From Bacteroidia bacterium (lineage in GTDB: Bacteria; Bacteroidota; Bacteroidia; Bacteroidales; JAPLDU01), in the NCBI GenBank assembly GCA_026391255.1, contig JAPLDU010000049.1, positions 2,714-37,375 of the forward strand: DNA of 34,662 bases, read 5' to 3'. The notes under the pieces were generated by a model. It worked only from the letters and a program-made list of their open reading frames with translations, was not told the origin of the DNA and did no database searches. Within the stretch, counting starts at the first letter, position 1; each line of letters starts with the position of its first letter. Below, in pieces: positions 13,105 through 29,296 of the stretch. The position numbers and the translations under genes were made by a program.

Positions 13105-16100
13105 ATGAGACTTTTTAAACTTCATCTGCTGATCATCACCGGTTTTGTGTTTATCTCCAGCGCATACCCGTCGGATCTGATCTACACCGGTAAAAAACAT
13201 GATTCAAAAAATGACATCAGCCTGGTATCCGGTACAAAATCCGGTACAGTATTGAATGTCAAGGTGAATTGCTATTCACTGAAAGAGGTATTGGTGGATG
13301 GGAAAAAAGCCTTCGTGGTGGAATCACCGGGATGCCCGAGAATACAGTCGGCCGGCGCTCCTGATCTTCCCAAACTTGTGAGATCGGTGATCATACCTGA
13401 CAATGCAGAGATGCAAGCTGAGGTTATTTCGTCCGAATTCATTGAAATTTATGATATTGACATTGCTCCATCCAAAGGTGTGATCAGCCGGAACACTGAT
13501 CCCTCATCGGTAGCATACATGGTTGGAATTGAATATGCTCAGAACAGGTTTTATCCTGAGAACATCGCTCAACTTGACAAAGCTTATATCCTGCGTGATT
13601 TCAGAGGCCAGACGGTTGTTATCAATGCATTTCAGTATAACCCGGTGAAGAGGGTTTTAAGAATCTATACCGATCTGGTTGTAAAAATAAGTGCCAGACC
13701 CGGGATCACTTCTTCTGAAAATGTCATGTTCCGTAACCATCCTCTCACTTCTGTTGACAAAGAATTTGACCAGATTTACCAGGATCATTTTATCAATTAT
13801 GCCCATAACTACAAGTATATCCCGGTAGATGAGAGCGGTAAAATTCTGGTGATCTGCTATGACAGTTTCTTGCCGGCCATGCAGCCTTATGTTGACTGGA
13901 AAATCCTGAAAGGAATCCCTACTGAAATATTTCCTGTTTCAACAATTGGAACAACGGCAGCTGAGATAAAATCCTTCATAGCCAATGAGTACCAGACAAA
14001 GAACATCAAGTATGTACTGCTGGTTGGCGATGCAGCCCAGATTCCCACCAATACATACACCGGACTGGGTGGTTCGTCTGACAATGCCTACGGGTACATC
14101 AGCGGAAACGATCATTATGCCGAACTGTTTGTCGGGCGTTTTTCAGCAGAAGACACCATCCAGGTTGCCACTCAGGTGCAGAAAGTCATTGATTATGAAA
14201 AATACCCTTCAGCCACTTCCACCCACTGGAGCAAAAGCATAGGCATTGCTTCAGCCCTGGGCCCCGGCGATGACAATGAATACGATTACCAGCACGTAAC
14301 CAACATGCAAAACCTGATGCTGGGCTACACCTATACTTACAGTTTTGAAAATTTCGACGGCAGCCAGGCCGGCAATGATGCTGCCGGTGATGCCACCGCA
14401 GCCGAAATTACAAACTGCGTCAACGATGGCGGAAGCGTGATCCTCTATTGCGGTCATGGCGCCCAGGATGCCTGGGGAACCTCAGGTTTCTCAAATGCTG
14501 ATATGCCCAGCCTGACAAACGTGGGAAAACTGCCTTTCATCTGGTCGGTTGCCTGTGTGAACGGTGAATTCGACACAGGAACATGCTTCGCGGAAGCCTG
14601 GTTGCGCGCAACACACAACGGATCTCCTTCCGGTGCAGTTGCCACCCTGATGTCAACCATCAACCAAAGCTGGAGCTCACCCATGGAAGGCCAGGACCAC
14701 ATGGTCAACCTACTGGTTGAAAGTGTTGCCGGGAATATCAAAAGAACATTTGGAGGATTATCTATCAACGGCCTGATGGACATGATCGATGCCTACGGTA
14801 CCGATGGCGAGAACATGGCCGACACCTGGACAATCTTTGGAGATCCTTCACTGATGGTCTATACAAAGACTCCTGATGCGATGACGGTATCCCATCCATC
14901 TGTGGTTCCGCTTGGCACAACCCAGTTAACTGTCAACTGCAATACCGACGGCGCACTGGTATCACTTACCCTGAACGGCAGCATCCTGAACACCGGTATC
15001 GTTGCCGGAAATTCCGTTAATATCGTATTCCCGGCGCTTACAACTCTGGATACCGTTTACGTAACAGTCACGGCTTACAATAAACTGCCGTATTTCGGTA
15101 CGGTTGCCATCATCCCGGTTAACGGACCTTATATTAACCTCAATTCATACCTGGTAAACGATGCAATCGGGAATAATAACCAGTTAGCTGATTTCGGTGA
15201 GAATATTTCCCTTGACCTGCAGATTGAAAACCTCGGAGTGCAGATGGCACAAGGTGTTAATGCCACAATTTCAAGTACTGACACTTTCATTAACATTACG
15301 AATAATTCGGCTTCATTAGGTAATGTGGATATAACAAACATACTATCTTTTCCCGGTGTATTCGGGATCAGCATCGCAAATGATGTTCCTGACCAGCATG
15401 CTGTGACTATTCCAATGACCATTACCGATAATGCCTCCGACTCGTGGCCGGCTTCCATTAACCTGGTGATTAATGCTCCTTTACTAAAAGTGGACAATAT
15501 CACCTTTGATGATTCCCAGGGTGGGAACGGCAATCACCGTTTCGATCCGGGAGAAGCCATCGTAATCAGCAATGCAGATTTTAATAACGGCCATGCCGTT
15601 TCCGGGGATGCCATCTGCACATTAACATGCAGCAACCCTTACATCACCATTGTTGAACCCGATTTTGTGCTTGGTACTTTAGGCATTGCTTCTTCCACTC
15701 CTTCTTATTTCATCATCATCATCGATCCATCAACACCAACCAACACTGCGGTTGACCTGACCTTTACGCTGGTTGCCGGAAGCTATTCCGCCACCAGGAC
15801 AGTGAATAAAAAAGTGGGATTGACGGTTGAAGACTGGGAATCCGGCGGATTAACAAGTTATCCATGGCAGCAGTCGGGAACTTTGCCCTGGGTGGTGACC
15901 AATGATGAATTTTTTGAAGGTAATTATGCCGCTCATTCCGGAGCCATCACCGATAGCCAGAACTCTATCCTTTCAATTACCATCCAGGCCAGTCAGGACG
16001 ACAGCGTATCCTTTTACCGGAAAGTTTCATGCGAACAGGGAGTTGCGGGTACTCCTTATACATGGTACGACAACCTCGAATTCTTTATTGACAATATTTC

Positions 16101-16836
16101 CAATGGCAAATGGGACGGCGAACAGGACTGGTTAAAAGTGATCTATCCCGTCACTGCAGGTACACATACTTTGAAGTGGATATACACCAAAGACGAAGCA
16201 GTCTCTACCGGGCAGGACCGGGCATGGATTGACTTCATTCAATTCCCTTCAGTTGCTTCAACCAATAATGCACCGGTGTTTACTTCTTTGCCCGATACTC
16301 TGGCTCACAAGAATTGTGTTTATACTTATCAAATCACAGCTACCGATGCCGATGCCGGCGATGTACTGACCCTCACCTGTGTTTCCAGGCCAGACTGGCT
16401 GACAACTTTTTCTGATAACGGCGACGGAACAGCCATCCTGCAGGGAACACCAACTGATGCTGAATATGGACTTACTTTCTCTGTTGTACTGTCGGTAAGC
16501 GATGGTCATGTGAATACCCCGCAATTGTACTACCTGACGGTCACTTACGGCATTTTAGTCCCTGAACTTGCAGGCGGGCTGAAGATTGAAGTGTTTCCCA
16601 ACCCAACGACCGGCATGGCAAATATCAGTTTCTCACTTAAACAAGCATCACTGGTTAATCTTGGAATTTACAATATGCCCGGAGAGCTTGTATTGCCTGT
16701 CTTCACCGGCATTGACCTTGAAAACGGCAATCATTTTTATACTGTTGATACCCGCGATCTGTCCCCCGGCATTTATTTCATCAACCTGAACATTGACGGT
16801 GTCAGTCATGCCCGGAAAATAGTTATTGACCGGTGA
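13105..16836 (+). CDS. Gingipain-like C25 cysteine peptidase with T9SS tail (copy 2)
   Basis: A 1243-residue paralogue of the preceding peptidase. The signal peptide is at 1-22 (MRLFKLHLLIITGFVFISSA). The propeptide is about 35-230. The C25 catalytic domain is about 245-585 with LVGDAAQIPT, His451 (YCGHGAQDAWG) and Cys484 (VACVNGEFDTGTC), matching the gingipain His/Cys dyad. Ig/CARDB-like segments run to about 900. The VGLTVEDWESGG jelly-roll domain is about 905-1050, an Ig/cadherin-like module about 1053-1150, and the T9SS tail (IEVFPNPTTG, SPGIYFINL) about 1160-1243. The catalytic half is clearly diverged from copy 1, while the last 350 residues are nearly identical. Transcription may be separate or read-through from copy 1. 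It converges on the propeller gene at 16941. Confidence 0.93.
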   Translation: MRLFKLHLLIITGFVFISSAYPSDLIYTGKKHDSKNDISLVSGTKSGTVLNVKVNCYSLKEVLVDGKKAFVVESPGCPRIQSAGAPDLPKLVRSVIIPDNAEMQAEVISSEFIEIYDIDIAPSKGVISRNTDPSSVAYMVGIEYAQNRFYPENIAQLDKAYILRDFRGQTVVINAFQYNPVKRVLRIYTDLVVKISARPGITSSENVMFRNHPLTSVDKEFDQIYQDHFINYAHNYKYIPVDESGKILVICYDSFLPAMQPYVDWKILKGIPTEIFPVSTIGTTAAEIKSFIANEYQTKNIKYVLLVGDAAQIPTNTYTGLGGSSDNAYGYISGNDHYAELFVGRFSAEDTIQVATQVQKVIDYEKYPSATSTHWSKSIGIASALGPGDDNEYDYQHVTNMQNLMLGYTYTYSFENFDGSQAGNDAAGDATAAEITNCVNDGGSVILYCGHGAQDAWGTSGFSNADMPSLTNVGKLPFIWSVACVNGEFDTGTCFAEAWLRATHNGSPSGAVATLMSTINQSWSSPMEGQDHMVNLLVESVAGNIKRTFGGLSINGLMDMIDAYGTDGENMADTWTIFGDPSLMVYTKTPDAMTVSHPSVVPLGTTQLTVNCNTDGALVSLTLNGSILNTGIVAGNSVNIVFPALTTLDTVYVTVTAYNKLPYFGTVAIIPVNGPYINLNSYLVNDAIGNNNQLADFGENISLDLQIENLGVQMAQGVNATISSTDTFINITNNSASLGNVDITNILSFPGVFGISIANDVPDQHAVTIPMTITDNASDSWPASINLVINAPLLKVDNITFDDSQGGNGNHRFDPGEAIVISNADFNNGHAVSGDAICTLTCSNPYITIVEPDFVLGTLGIASSTPSYFIIIIDPSTPTNTAVDLTFTLVAGSYSATRTVNKKVGLTVEDWESGGLTSYPWQQSGTLPWVVTNDEFFEGNYAAHSGAITDSQNSILSITIQASQDDSVSFYRKVSCEQGVAGTPYTWYDNLEFFIDNISNGKWDGEQDWLKVIYPVTAGTHTLKWIYTKDEAVSTGQDRAWIDFIQFPSVASTNNAPVFTSLPDTLAHKNCVYTYQITATDADAGDVLTLTCVSRPDWLTTFSDNGDGTAILQGTPTDAEYGLTFSVVLSVSDGHVNTPQLYYLTVTYGILVPELAGGLKIEVFPNPTTGMANISFSLKQASLVNLGIYNMPGELVLPVFTGIDLENGNHFYTVDTRDLSPGIYFINLNIDGVSHARKIVIDR

Positions 16837-16845
16837 ACGCAGTTG

Positions 16846-16937
16846 GGACGCATGGCCATGCGTCCATATTAGGGACGCATGCCGTTGGGACGCATGCCGT
16901 TGGGACGTATGCCATTGGGACGCATGGCCATGCGTCC
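16846..16937. repeat. Palindrome - 3 x 15-bp repeats - palindrome, between convergent genes
   Basis: The perfect 20-bp palindrome GGACGCATGGCCATGCGTCC occurs at 16846-16865 and again at 16918-16937. Between them are three direct 15-bp units (GGGACGCATGCCGTT twice, then GGGACGTATGCCATT) at 16872, 16887 and 16902. The block fills the gap between the stops at 16836 and 16941. As RNA each palindrome would fold on either strand, so it may act as a two-way transcription end, though it lacks a U tract. Confidence 0.85.
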
Positions 16938-24528: not shown

Positions 24529-24840
24529 AAAGTTTGTAAAGTTCATAAAGTTTGTAAAGTTCGTAAAGTTTATAAAGTTTGTAAAGTTTATAAAGTTATT
24601 TCTATCGCTCATCGCTTAGTTCGTTTAGTTCGTTCTGTCACTTCGTCACTTCGTCTCTCAGTCACTCAGTCCCTTCGTCTTGCATCGTCGCCCCGTCGCT
24701 TAGTTCGCTTAGTTCGTTCTGTCACTTCGTCTCTCAGTCCCTTCGTCTATCATCGTCTCACAGTCGCTTAGTTCGCTTAGTTCGTTCTGTCACTTCGTCA
24801 CTCAGTCACTTAGTCACCTAATGCCTAGTGCCTAGTGCCT
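24529..24840 (+). repeat. Composite array of 9-, 8- and 7-bp repeats
   Basis: 24529-24600 is eight in-phase 9-mers (AAAGTTTGT, AAAGTTCAT, AAAGTTTGT, AAAGTTCGT, AAAGTTTAT and so on). From 24613, 24697 and 24765 a longer block repeats three times: 9-mers CGCTTAGTT and CGTTCTGTC followed by 8-mers ACTTCGTC, TCTCAGTC, ACTCAGTC, CCTTCGTC. It ends with 7-mers GCCTAGT, GCCTAGT before 24840. The block spacing is 84 and 68 bp. Confidence 0.85.
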
Positions 24841-27225: not shown

Positions 27226-27843
27226 ATGAGATACCATTTTTTTTCCAGGATAATTACAGTATTGATGCTCTTTCTGATCTTTACCTTCAGGCTTTCAGCC
27301 CAGGCACAGGATGAATATAAAAAGATCGTATACCAGGATAAAATTTACCAGACCGGAAGCTCATGGTTCACTATCGGCGCTGGAGCAGGCTTTGAGACCA
27401 GTCTGAAAGACCTTGAAAAAAATCTCAGCATGGGCATAAACTTCAGGATAAAAGACCAGTACTTTAATGTTGGCTATCATTTCTCAAGCGATGAAATGAT
27501 TTACAAAAGGTCAATGCAACGGCTAACTGACCTGCATGTGGGTATTGGCATACGCCGCGAAGACCTTAAACATAATGTCTATTTCTTCGGTGGGCCCAGT
27601 AACAGTTACGGATATATATACAATTACAGCGATTCCACGGGAACCAAGTATTACAAAGGATTCAACACGATCGGCATTTATACCGAATTTCAATATACCT
27701 GGAAAATATTTTACGACATCGGGATCGGCCCGTCTTTCTATGCCAATATCAATCAATACTATAAGGTTGTCGGAGTGCAGTTGCACCTGTATTTCTCCAC
27801 CGCCTACCGCAATAAGATCGATTTCATCAAAATGAATCCGTAA
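27226..27843 (+). CDS. Exported hypothetical protein, possible outer-membrane beta-barrel
   Basis: A 205-residue protein with a signal peptide (ITVLMLFLIFTFRLSAQAQ). The rest is rich in alternating aromatic and Gly strands (WFTIGAGAGFETSL, YFNVGYHFSS, LHVGIGIRRE, YDIGIGPSFYANINQYYKVV), a pattern typical of small outer-membrane beta-barrels of eight or so strands. I do not recognise a named family. It starts 68 bp after the DUF3109 gene and may be co-transcribed. Its stop lies at the edge of a heptamer array, convergent to tilS. Confidence 0.75.
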   Translation: MRYHFFSRIITVLMLFLIFTFRLSAQAQDEYKKIVYQDKIYQTGSSWFTIGAGAGFETSLKDLEKNLSMGINFRIKDQYFNVGYHFSSDEMIYKRSMQRLTDLHVGIGIRREDLKHNVYFFGGPSNSYGYIYNYSDSTGTKYYKGFNTIGIYTEFQYTWKIFYDIGIGPSFYANINQYYKVVGVQLHLYFSTAYRNKIDFIKMNP

Positions 27844-27853
27844 GTCGAAGAAG

Positions 27854-27979
27854 GAGTTATGAGTTATGAGTTATGAGTTATGAGTTATGAGTTATGAGTT
27901 ATGAGTTATGAGTTATGAGTCATGAGTTTTGAACTCTGAACTTTGAACTATTGACTATTGACTATCGACTATCGACTAA
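27854..27979 (+). repeat. Heptamer array filling the gap to tilS and entering its 3' end
   Basis: Eighteen 7-mers in phase: nine identical GAGTTAT (27854-27916), then GAGTCAT, GAGTTTT, GAACTCT, GAACTTT, GAACTAT, TGACTAT, TGACTAT, CGACTAT, CGACTAA. The last 18 bp lie inside tilS (stop at 27962-27964). Confidence 0.9.
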
Positions 27980-29296
27980 TTCAATAACCAGCACATTTTT
28001 ACTATTTGGGGTTACTTTGTAGCGGTCGTCAATGCGGTGGCCGGCTATCCAGACAATATGATCGCCGGATGCAAGTATCCAGGTCTGTTCTTTTTCTACC
28101 AGGGACATTTTCTGGTCAATAAAAAAATCGCTCAGTTTCTTGAATTCTTTCATTCCGAATGGCCTGAAATATTCTCCCTGCCTCCATTTGCGGAGTACAA
28201 GCGGGAAATCCAGCAAATCTTCATCCAGGTATGCAAACCTGGATTCACGTTGTATCACAAGGTCGGATGAATTATTTACACGGGTGAATGTTAATTTAAG
28301 CGGAATATTGATAATCACAGTTTCCTTTTCAATATAAACAAGAGTATCATCTCCGGAAGGAATAGCAGTAATAATAAGCTTATCCCTGTCTTTCACCAAT
28401 CTGTGAGTAGATGAGAAAAACTGTCTGCCTGATTCGCCGTGCAGAGAGGCAATGATCTCATCCGTTTCATCTTCATTAAAACCGTACGGATTGAGCATCT
28501 CGAACAGGTAACTGCGCAAGGGATTAAGTTCAAGTAATTCATTCACTGATATTTCCAAGACAATATCTGATTTATGAATAAGAAGTCTGTTTATTACCTC
28601 ATCCACAACCTGTCGGTAAATCATCTCGATTTCGTAAAACCTGTTGACATTTTCTATCATGGTTTCGTTGAAGTTGGGATTGATCTGCCGGAAGACCGGT
28701 AAAATATGGTGACGAATACGGTTGCGTGCATAGCGGGTGGTGGCATTGCTTGAATCTTCGCGGAATACCAGCTTTTGTTCATCAGCATATTCCTGTATCT
28801 GGTGCCTGGTGGCAAACAATAAAGGTCTCACCAGCAGGCCGGATTTAGGTTTTATACCAGTTATGCCTCTTATTCCGGTTCCCCGCGAAATATTGATCAG
28901 GAATGTTTCAACGATATCGTCCTTGTGGTGTGCCAAAGCAATATAATCGAATCCATATAATTGTCTCACCTCTTCAAACCAGTCAAACCTGAGTTTACGT
29001 GCTGCCATCTGAATGGAAATACCATTTGATTCAGCATATTCTTCAGTGTCAAATTTTTTAACATATATAGGAATTCCTCTCTCATCAGCCAGTCCTGTGA
29101 CAAATTCTTCGTCAAGGTTCGATTCTTCATCCCTCAGCATGAAATTACAATGAACAATGGCGCAACGGTACCCGGCCTGAATGAATAAATCGAGCATTAC
29201 CACCGAATCGAGACCACCACTTACAGCCAGCAATATCCTGTCGTTCTTCCCAAACAGATGGTGCTGTTTGATAAAACCGCAAAAGATCTCAATCAT
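27962..29296 (-). CDS. tilS: tRNA(Ile)-lysidine synthetase
   Basis: A 444-residue cytoplasmic enzyme that uses ATP and lysine to change C34 of tRNA-Ile(CAU) to lysidine, so it reads AUA. The ATP PP-loop SGGLDS is at residues 26-31 in the N-terminal N-type ATPase domain. ALAHHKDDIVETFLINISRGTGIRG and NRIRHHILPVF are typical TilS signatures. The C-terminal substrate-binding domain (LRKWRQGEYFRPFGMKEFKKLSDFF) is complete. The final five codons and the stop are made from a heptamer repeat array, so the natural C-terminus may have been replaced, but the loss falls after the conserved domain. It is transcribed in the same direction as the peroxiredoxin gene, which has its own terminator. Confidence 0.97.
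   Translation of the reverse strand: MIEIFCGFIKQHHLFGKNDRILLAVSGGLDSVVMLDLFIQAGYRCAIVHCNFMLRDEESNLDEEFVTGLADERGIPIYVKKFDTEEYAESNGISIQMAARKLRFDWFEEVRQLYGFDYIALAHHKDDIVETFLINISRGTGIRGITGIKPKSGLLVRPLLFATRHQIQEYADEQKLVFREDSSNATTRYARNRIRHHILPVFRQINPNFNETMIENVNRFYEIEMIYRQVVDEVINRLLIHKSDIVLEISVNELLELNPLRSYLFEMLNPYGFNEDETDEIIASLHGESGRQFFSSTHRLVKDRDKLIITAIPSGDDTLVYIEKETVIINIPLKLTFTRVNNSSDLVIQRESRFAYLDEDLLDFPLVLRKWRQGEYFRPFGMKEFKKLSDFFIDQKMSLVEKEQTWILASGDHIVWIAGHRIDDRYKVTPNSKNVLVIELVDSR

Follow-up and report, generated by a model that had tools for sequence, protein, structure and literature searches.

A heptamer array encodes the end of tilS in a Bacteroidia genome and may act as a passive stop trap

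The window, a stretch of 34,662 nucleotides from a draft Bacteroidia genome, contains a convergent pair of genes whose 3’ ends are separated by a tandem repeat. On the minus strand lies tilS (27962-29296), encoding a tRNA lysidine(34) synthetase of 444 aa, and on the plus strand lies an ORF of 205 aa (27226-27843) that has no Pfam match and weakly matches an outer-membrane beta-barrel family of NCBIfam. Positions 27854-27979 are fully occupied by a tandem array, 18 heptamers long and in phase throughout. Read on the plus strand from 27854, the array starts with nine identical GAGTTAT units (27854-27916), continues through the mixed units GAGTCAT, GAGTTTT, GAACTCT, GAACTTT and GAACTAT (27917-27951), and ends with TGACTAT, TGACTAT, CGACTAT and CGACTAA (27952-27979), a block that carries one TAG per unit on the minus strand. 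The GAGTTAT block begins 10 bp past the stop of the plus-strand neighbour and finishes 45 bp before the stop codon of tilS. The longest identical run in the array spans 9.6 units, as compared to a maximum of 3.6 in the window’s remaining heptamer arrays, and the nine units are therefore, among heptamers, the least decayed stretch, as had been claimed. They are presumably the youngest part of the array.

The array overlaps the tilS reading frame by 18 nt. Positions 27979-27962, read on the minus strand, are TTA GTC GAT AGT CGA TAG, which gives the last five residues, LVDSR, and the stop, so that the ORF closes with ELVDSR. The original prediction had read this gene end exactly. The TAG in frame is the third that the array offers on the minus strand. 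Because each of these units contains one TAG, and because 7 is coprime to 3, reading along the tilS strand meets a stop in any of the three frames after no more than 21 nt. The effect of copy number was assessed by deleting or doubling each of the 18 units singly. TilS remained 444 aa long in all 36 cases, and LVDSR was kept in 33 of them. With only one or two units left the protein would be 457 or 494 residues long, and with none, the flanks being joined, 447. The array is thus a self-buffering cap and not a switch. In-frame tandem repeats are a classical substrate of phase variation, and an array of this kind could in principle be a contingency locus in which copy-number change switches or alters TilS. 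However, no one-unit change alters the length of the product, only three alter a residue, and the array sits at the very end of the protein, past the conserved TilS core, which makes such a role hardly credible.

The tilS product was identified as a genuine family member by its PP-loop N domain (PF01171, E 9e-51) and its TilS C domain (PF11734, E 1e-8), and both TIGR02432 and TIGR02433 scored above cut-off. The Pfam TilS_C match stops at residue 435, and the last residue aligned in most relatives lies between 436 and 442. Similarity to the family is lost after about residue 440, where the final strand has its last hydrophobic position, and a tail of four residues is left. L440 is itself encoded by the array and occupies a position that is mostly hydrophobic across the family. 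TilS was detected in 58 of 60 genomes of the order (the present one included), from which 49 loci were read; 48 were complete, namely the present gene and 47 relatives. Past position 440, the relatives’ tails span -1 to 21 residues. It had been predicted that TilS would have a longer C-terminus where the array is absent, but the tail is shorter than the present one in 35 of the 47 relatives, equal in four and longer in eight, which does not support that expectation. None of the 47 ends in LVDSR. An LVDSR ending in relatives free of the array would have spoken against a rewritten gene end, but the tails are so variable that its absence says little, and by the same token a four-residue tail requires no special history. 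A TilS scan of genome contigs returned 12 loci, the closest 54% identical, a search across the order (393 genomes, E-value cut 1e-140) returned none above 55% apart from the present genome, and a search confined to the family recovered the present genome alone. Among these relatives, none of which is more than about 55% identical, no array-free ancestor of the tilS end was found; with the nearest at about 54%, rewriting of the gene end cannot be shown directly. In a Draconibacterium MAG (L034), the DNA past the tilS stop resembles, by eye, a degenerate heptamer run that falls below the detection threshold.

Similar arrays are abundant in this genome. Segments repeating at a lag of 7 with a score of at least 14 numbered 86 in 347,691 bases (six of them runs of N), as compared to two in a Markov shuffle. 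Three copies of GASTTAT, with up to three mismatches, matched 1247 times in the whole genome and 31 times in a reversed control. The sample used for the array counts comprised 709,523 bases, or 41 stretches of the 4,082,173-base genome, the stretches having been picked in part because they hold arrays. It contained 122 arrays of 7 nt, 70 of 8 nt and 37 of 9 nt, and at most three arrays at each of the lags 4–6 and 10–13. In the first 348 kb, 56 of 70 lag-7 arrays lay entirely between ORFs. Neighbouring units are more alike (6.36 of 7 positions) than distant ones (5.90 of 7), which fits stepwise duplication. In 120 of 122 arrays the commonest unit closes all three frames on one strand or on both, as compared to a share of 0.80 among shuffled units (with weighting by array size), an excess to be read with the shared unit ancestry of the arrays in mind; closure of all frames on both strands was seen in 40 of 122, against 32.7 expected from base-shuffled units, which is no clear excess. 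Among relatives, GASTTAT with up to three mismatches had at least one match in 27 of 60 genomes, many of which barely differ from the reversed control. The present genome has the most matches and is followed by G046, a genome of another family (208 against 59 in the control), in which 42 arrays of 7 nt, 12 of 8 nt and one of 9 nt were counted. Four contigs of the present genome (C27, C58, C76 and C98) terminate within heptamer arrays. It is therefore probable that arrays interrupted the assembly and that the longest of them are missing from it. Elsewhere in the window, the divergent gap at 24529-24840 is full of 9-, 8- and 7-nt arrays and holds a 68-bp duplication (89% alike), and a 15-bp repeat, GGGACGCATGCCGTT, is present in 3.7 copies at 16872-16926, directly past the 3’ end of the ORF at 13105-16836.

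The gap between tilS and its neighbour can be folded on the plus strand, and on that strand only, as a single long imperfect RNA hairpin (27841-27985; -48.2 kcal/mol, z -6.4), and none of 200 shuffles folded as well. Such a fold could be expected of a selected 3’ element, serving both convergent genes as a bidirectional transcription terminator or as an RNA-stabilising hairpin. However, the minus strand of the gap folds with a z of only -0.7, no intrinsic terminator (a G+C-rich hairpin followed by a T run) was found in 27700-28100, and the gap has no Rfam match. In a comparison set of 93 array clusters of at least 60 nt, folding below -0.25 kcal/mol per nt was seen in 2 of 19 convergent, 9 of 50 tandem, none of 10 divergent and 2 of 14 stretch-edge clusters. 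Arrays also sit in every type of gap, tandem (39 of 99), convergent (17 of 30) and divergent (10 of 33). The folding of the gap probably follows from units like GASTTAT being nearly self-complementary when G-U pairs are allowed. The hairpin was dropped as an explanation of the array because the fold is not special to convergent gaps, and a selected element of this kind is improbable here.

In the sample, SR-TAG written on the same heptamer terminates four ORFs of known family, tilS and three that are unrelated to it: a PAP2 phosphatase (L082, ending VVSR), a type I methionine aminopeptidase (Map; L118, ending VESR) and a ribulose-phosphate 3-epimerase (Rpe; L106, ending ENSR). SR before the stop ends 8 of 478 ORFs, where 1.85 would be expected; four of the eight are these array-borne ends and the other four lie off arrays. 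When arrays of the TAGTCR type were picked by their unit alone (19 distinct arrays), 10 were found to terminate an ORF, 80 or more codons long and read on the TAG-carrying strand, either inside the array or right at it. The Rpe of this genome exceeds the most frequent length of its relatives by three residues. The C-terminus of Map is too variable among 21 other copies to show lengthening caused by an array. That gene ends are made by the repeat, and that tilS is no coincidence, is best supported by this recurrence of SR-TAG. A gene that merely happens to end beside an array, or an artefact of an assembly in 161 contigs, several of which end in arrays, is accordingly very unlikely: besides that recurrence in unrelated genes, the 18 units run unbroken in phase and the array is internal to a contig of 104,988 bases.

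The position of arrays relative to gene ends was then compared with that relative to gene starts, genes in these counts being the longest ORFs of at least 100 codons, uncurated. Array edges that overlap a gene or lie within 10 bp of it were found on the stop side in 55 of 201 cases (24.4 expected under random placement in the gap) and on the start side in 19 of 157 (17.4 expected), a significant contrast in the sample from this genome (Fisher p 0.0004). Overlaps of at least 6 nt numbered nine on the stop side and six on the start side. In G046 the corresponding counts were 20 of 37 and 12 of 29, a difference that is not significant (p 0.33). At edges overlapping a stop codon, the array carries a stop on the gene’s strand in 25 of 27 cases, on that strand only in 21 and on the other strand only in one, whereas at edges at least 30 bp away 34 carry it on the gene’s strand only and 45 on the other only. 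Of the 58 edges within 10 bp of a stop, 16 have the stop of the gene as an in-phase copy of the array’s own stop, as compared to 4.3 expected with random phase. Start codons are in phase at 1 of 16 edges (0.4 expected). In G046, the gene stop is in phase at 10 of 20 edges (1.5 expected) and the start codon at none of 14. Edge positions peak at -5 to +2 around the stop. Where array and stop overlap by at least 3 nt, the stop in use is the first that the array offers in 17 of 23 cases in this genome and in 11 of 12 in G046, which suggests that arrays often start at an existing stop and do not overrun it. In one further case, an octamer array at L079:7289-7354 overlaps both 3’ ends of a convergent pair, covering the last 20 nt of a fabH-like gene and the last 6 nt of the ORF facing it.

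These data bear on the possibility that the tilS array was seeded by the stop itself, the original terminal sequence of tilS with its TAG serving as the founder unit that was copied outward, so that the gene end would be the source of the repeat. The in-phase native stops of both genomes, the peak of edge positions, the frequent use of the first array stop and the location of the identical GAGTTAT block at the end away from tilS all speak for seeding of this kind. Plain outward copying, however, would keep the first TAG in use. tilS belongs to the minority of 6 of 23 that do not use it: its stop is the third array TAG on its strand, and the two earlier ones fall in other frames inside the coding overlap. 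This fits an array that passed an earlier stop and not one that grew outward from the current one, and for tilS we consider seeding by its own stop rather unlikely, though it is the rival with most in its favour. For the 7–9 nt arrays of Bacteroidales-like genomes as a group, we tentatively raise a related possibility. They might nucleate on stops, with a native stop and the four to six bases after it as the founder, in phase and pointing away from the gene, and some might creep back and rewrite the last residues, as in tilS, to leave the shared SR tail.

The reading that we favour as probable is that the tilS array is one of the many degenerate intergenic arrays of 7–9 nt in this uncultured, Bacteroidales-like genome and that its tilS-side edge acts as a passive stop trap. 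Such arrays would be created and lengthened by replication slippage, a presumption drawn from the likeness of neighbouring units and from general knowledge. The array would have overrun an earlier tilS stop, and whatever the frame of entry the gene would be closed after at most six array-made residues, with the tail set by that frame and not by copy number. The end would be tolerated because the tail, which is likely neutral, comes after the final conserved strand of TilS. The anatomy of the array, the frame arithmetic, the position of the tail, the recurrence at other genes and the stop-side bias are direct observations. The original prediction, that the array grew up to the gene end and rewrote it, stands in part: the array does supply the end of tilS, the same SR-TAG end occurs in unrelated genes and the third stop is the one used. 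The young nine-unit block, on the other hand, lies at the end far from tilS, so growth is not located in the portion that overlaps tilS, and recent growth did not extend up to the gene.

The arrays conform to a general definition of bacterial heptamer repeats, with head-to-tail 7-nt units at many loci that are mainly intergenic. In cyanobacteria, STRR sequences are tandem heptamers attributed to replication error, with units that differ from those described here. The closest published cases place the tilS array within a kind already known, heptamers that overlap stop codons (PMC4679880, PMC4692102). The first (PMC4679880; MacGregor 2015) concerns TAACTGA direct repeats in Beggiatoaceae, some Cyanobacteria and five Bacteroidetes, which are likewise heptameric and mostly intergenic and which, in a Beggiatoaceae genome, overlap the stop codons of 13 coding regions; the paper makes the same three-frame argument and gives an 18-nt limit. 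The present unit is not TAACTGA, which accounts for 2 of 1137 units in the sample and none in the tilS array, while the TAACTCA class accounts for 83; the present arrays also have degenerate units and occur with units of 8 and 9 nt. In the BOGUAY genome of that paper, most repeats lie directly upstream of start codons, whereas the bias seen here is toward stops. The second paper (PMC4692102; Xanthomonas 2015) describes abundant intergenic GGGAATC-type heptamers near or overlapping stop codons in Xanthomonas and Nostoc. These are G-rich and quadruplex-forming, whereas the present arrays are A+T-rich, and the tilS units (GAGTTAT, GAACTNT and NGACTAW) contain no G runs. Bacterial heptamer satellites, tandem and thought to result from replication error, are the subject of PMC6749651, the available part of which gives other unit sequences and no stop-codon analysis. 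Our literature search found no report of Bacteroidales arrays anchored on stop codons, which does not prove that none exists, and it found neither in-phase stop anchoring nor a tail shared by unrelated proteins of one genome.

If nucleation on stops is correct, stop codons would be a birth hotspot for bacterial satellites. The tilS locus suggests that a neutral repeat can close the gene for a key enzyme of tRNA modification with no apparent harm, since units with a length not divisible by three bring stops in every frame. Should the stop-anchoring bias hold in more genomes, it would give both the place and the phase of tandem-array birth, and it would account for some of the short, gene-independent C-terminal tails in predicted proteins.
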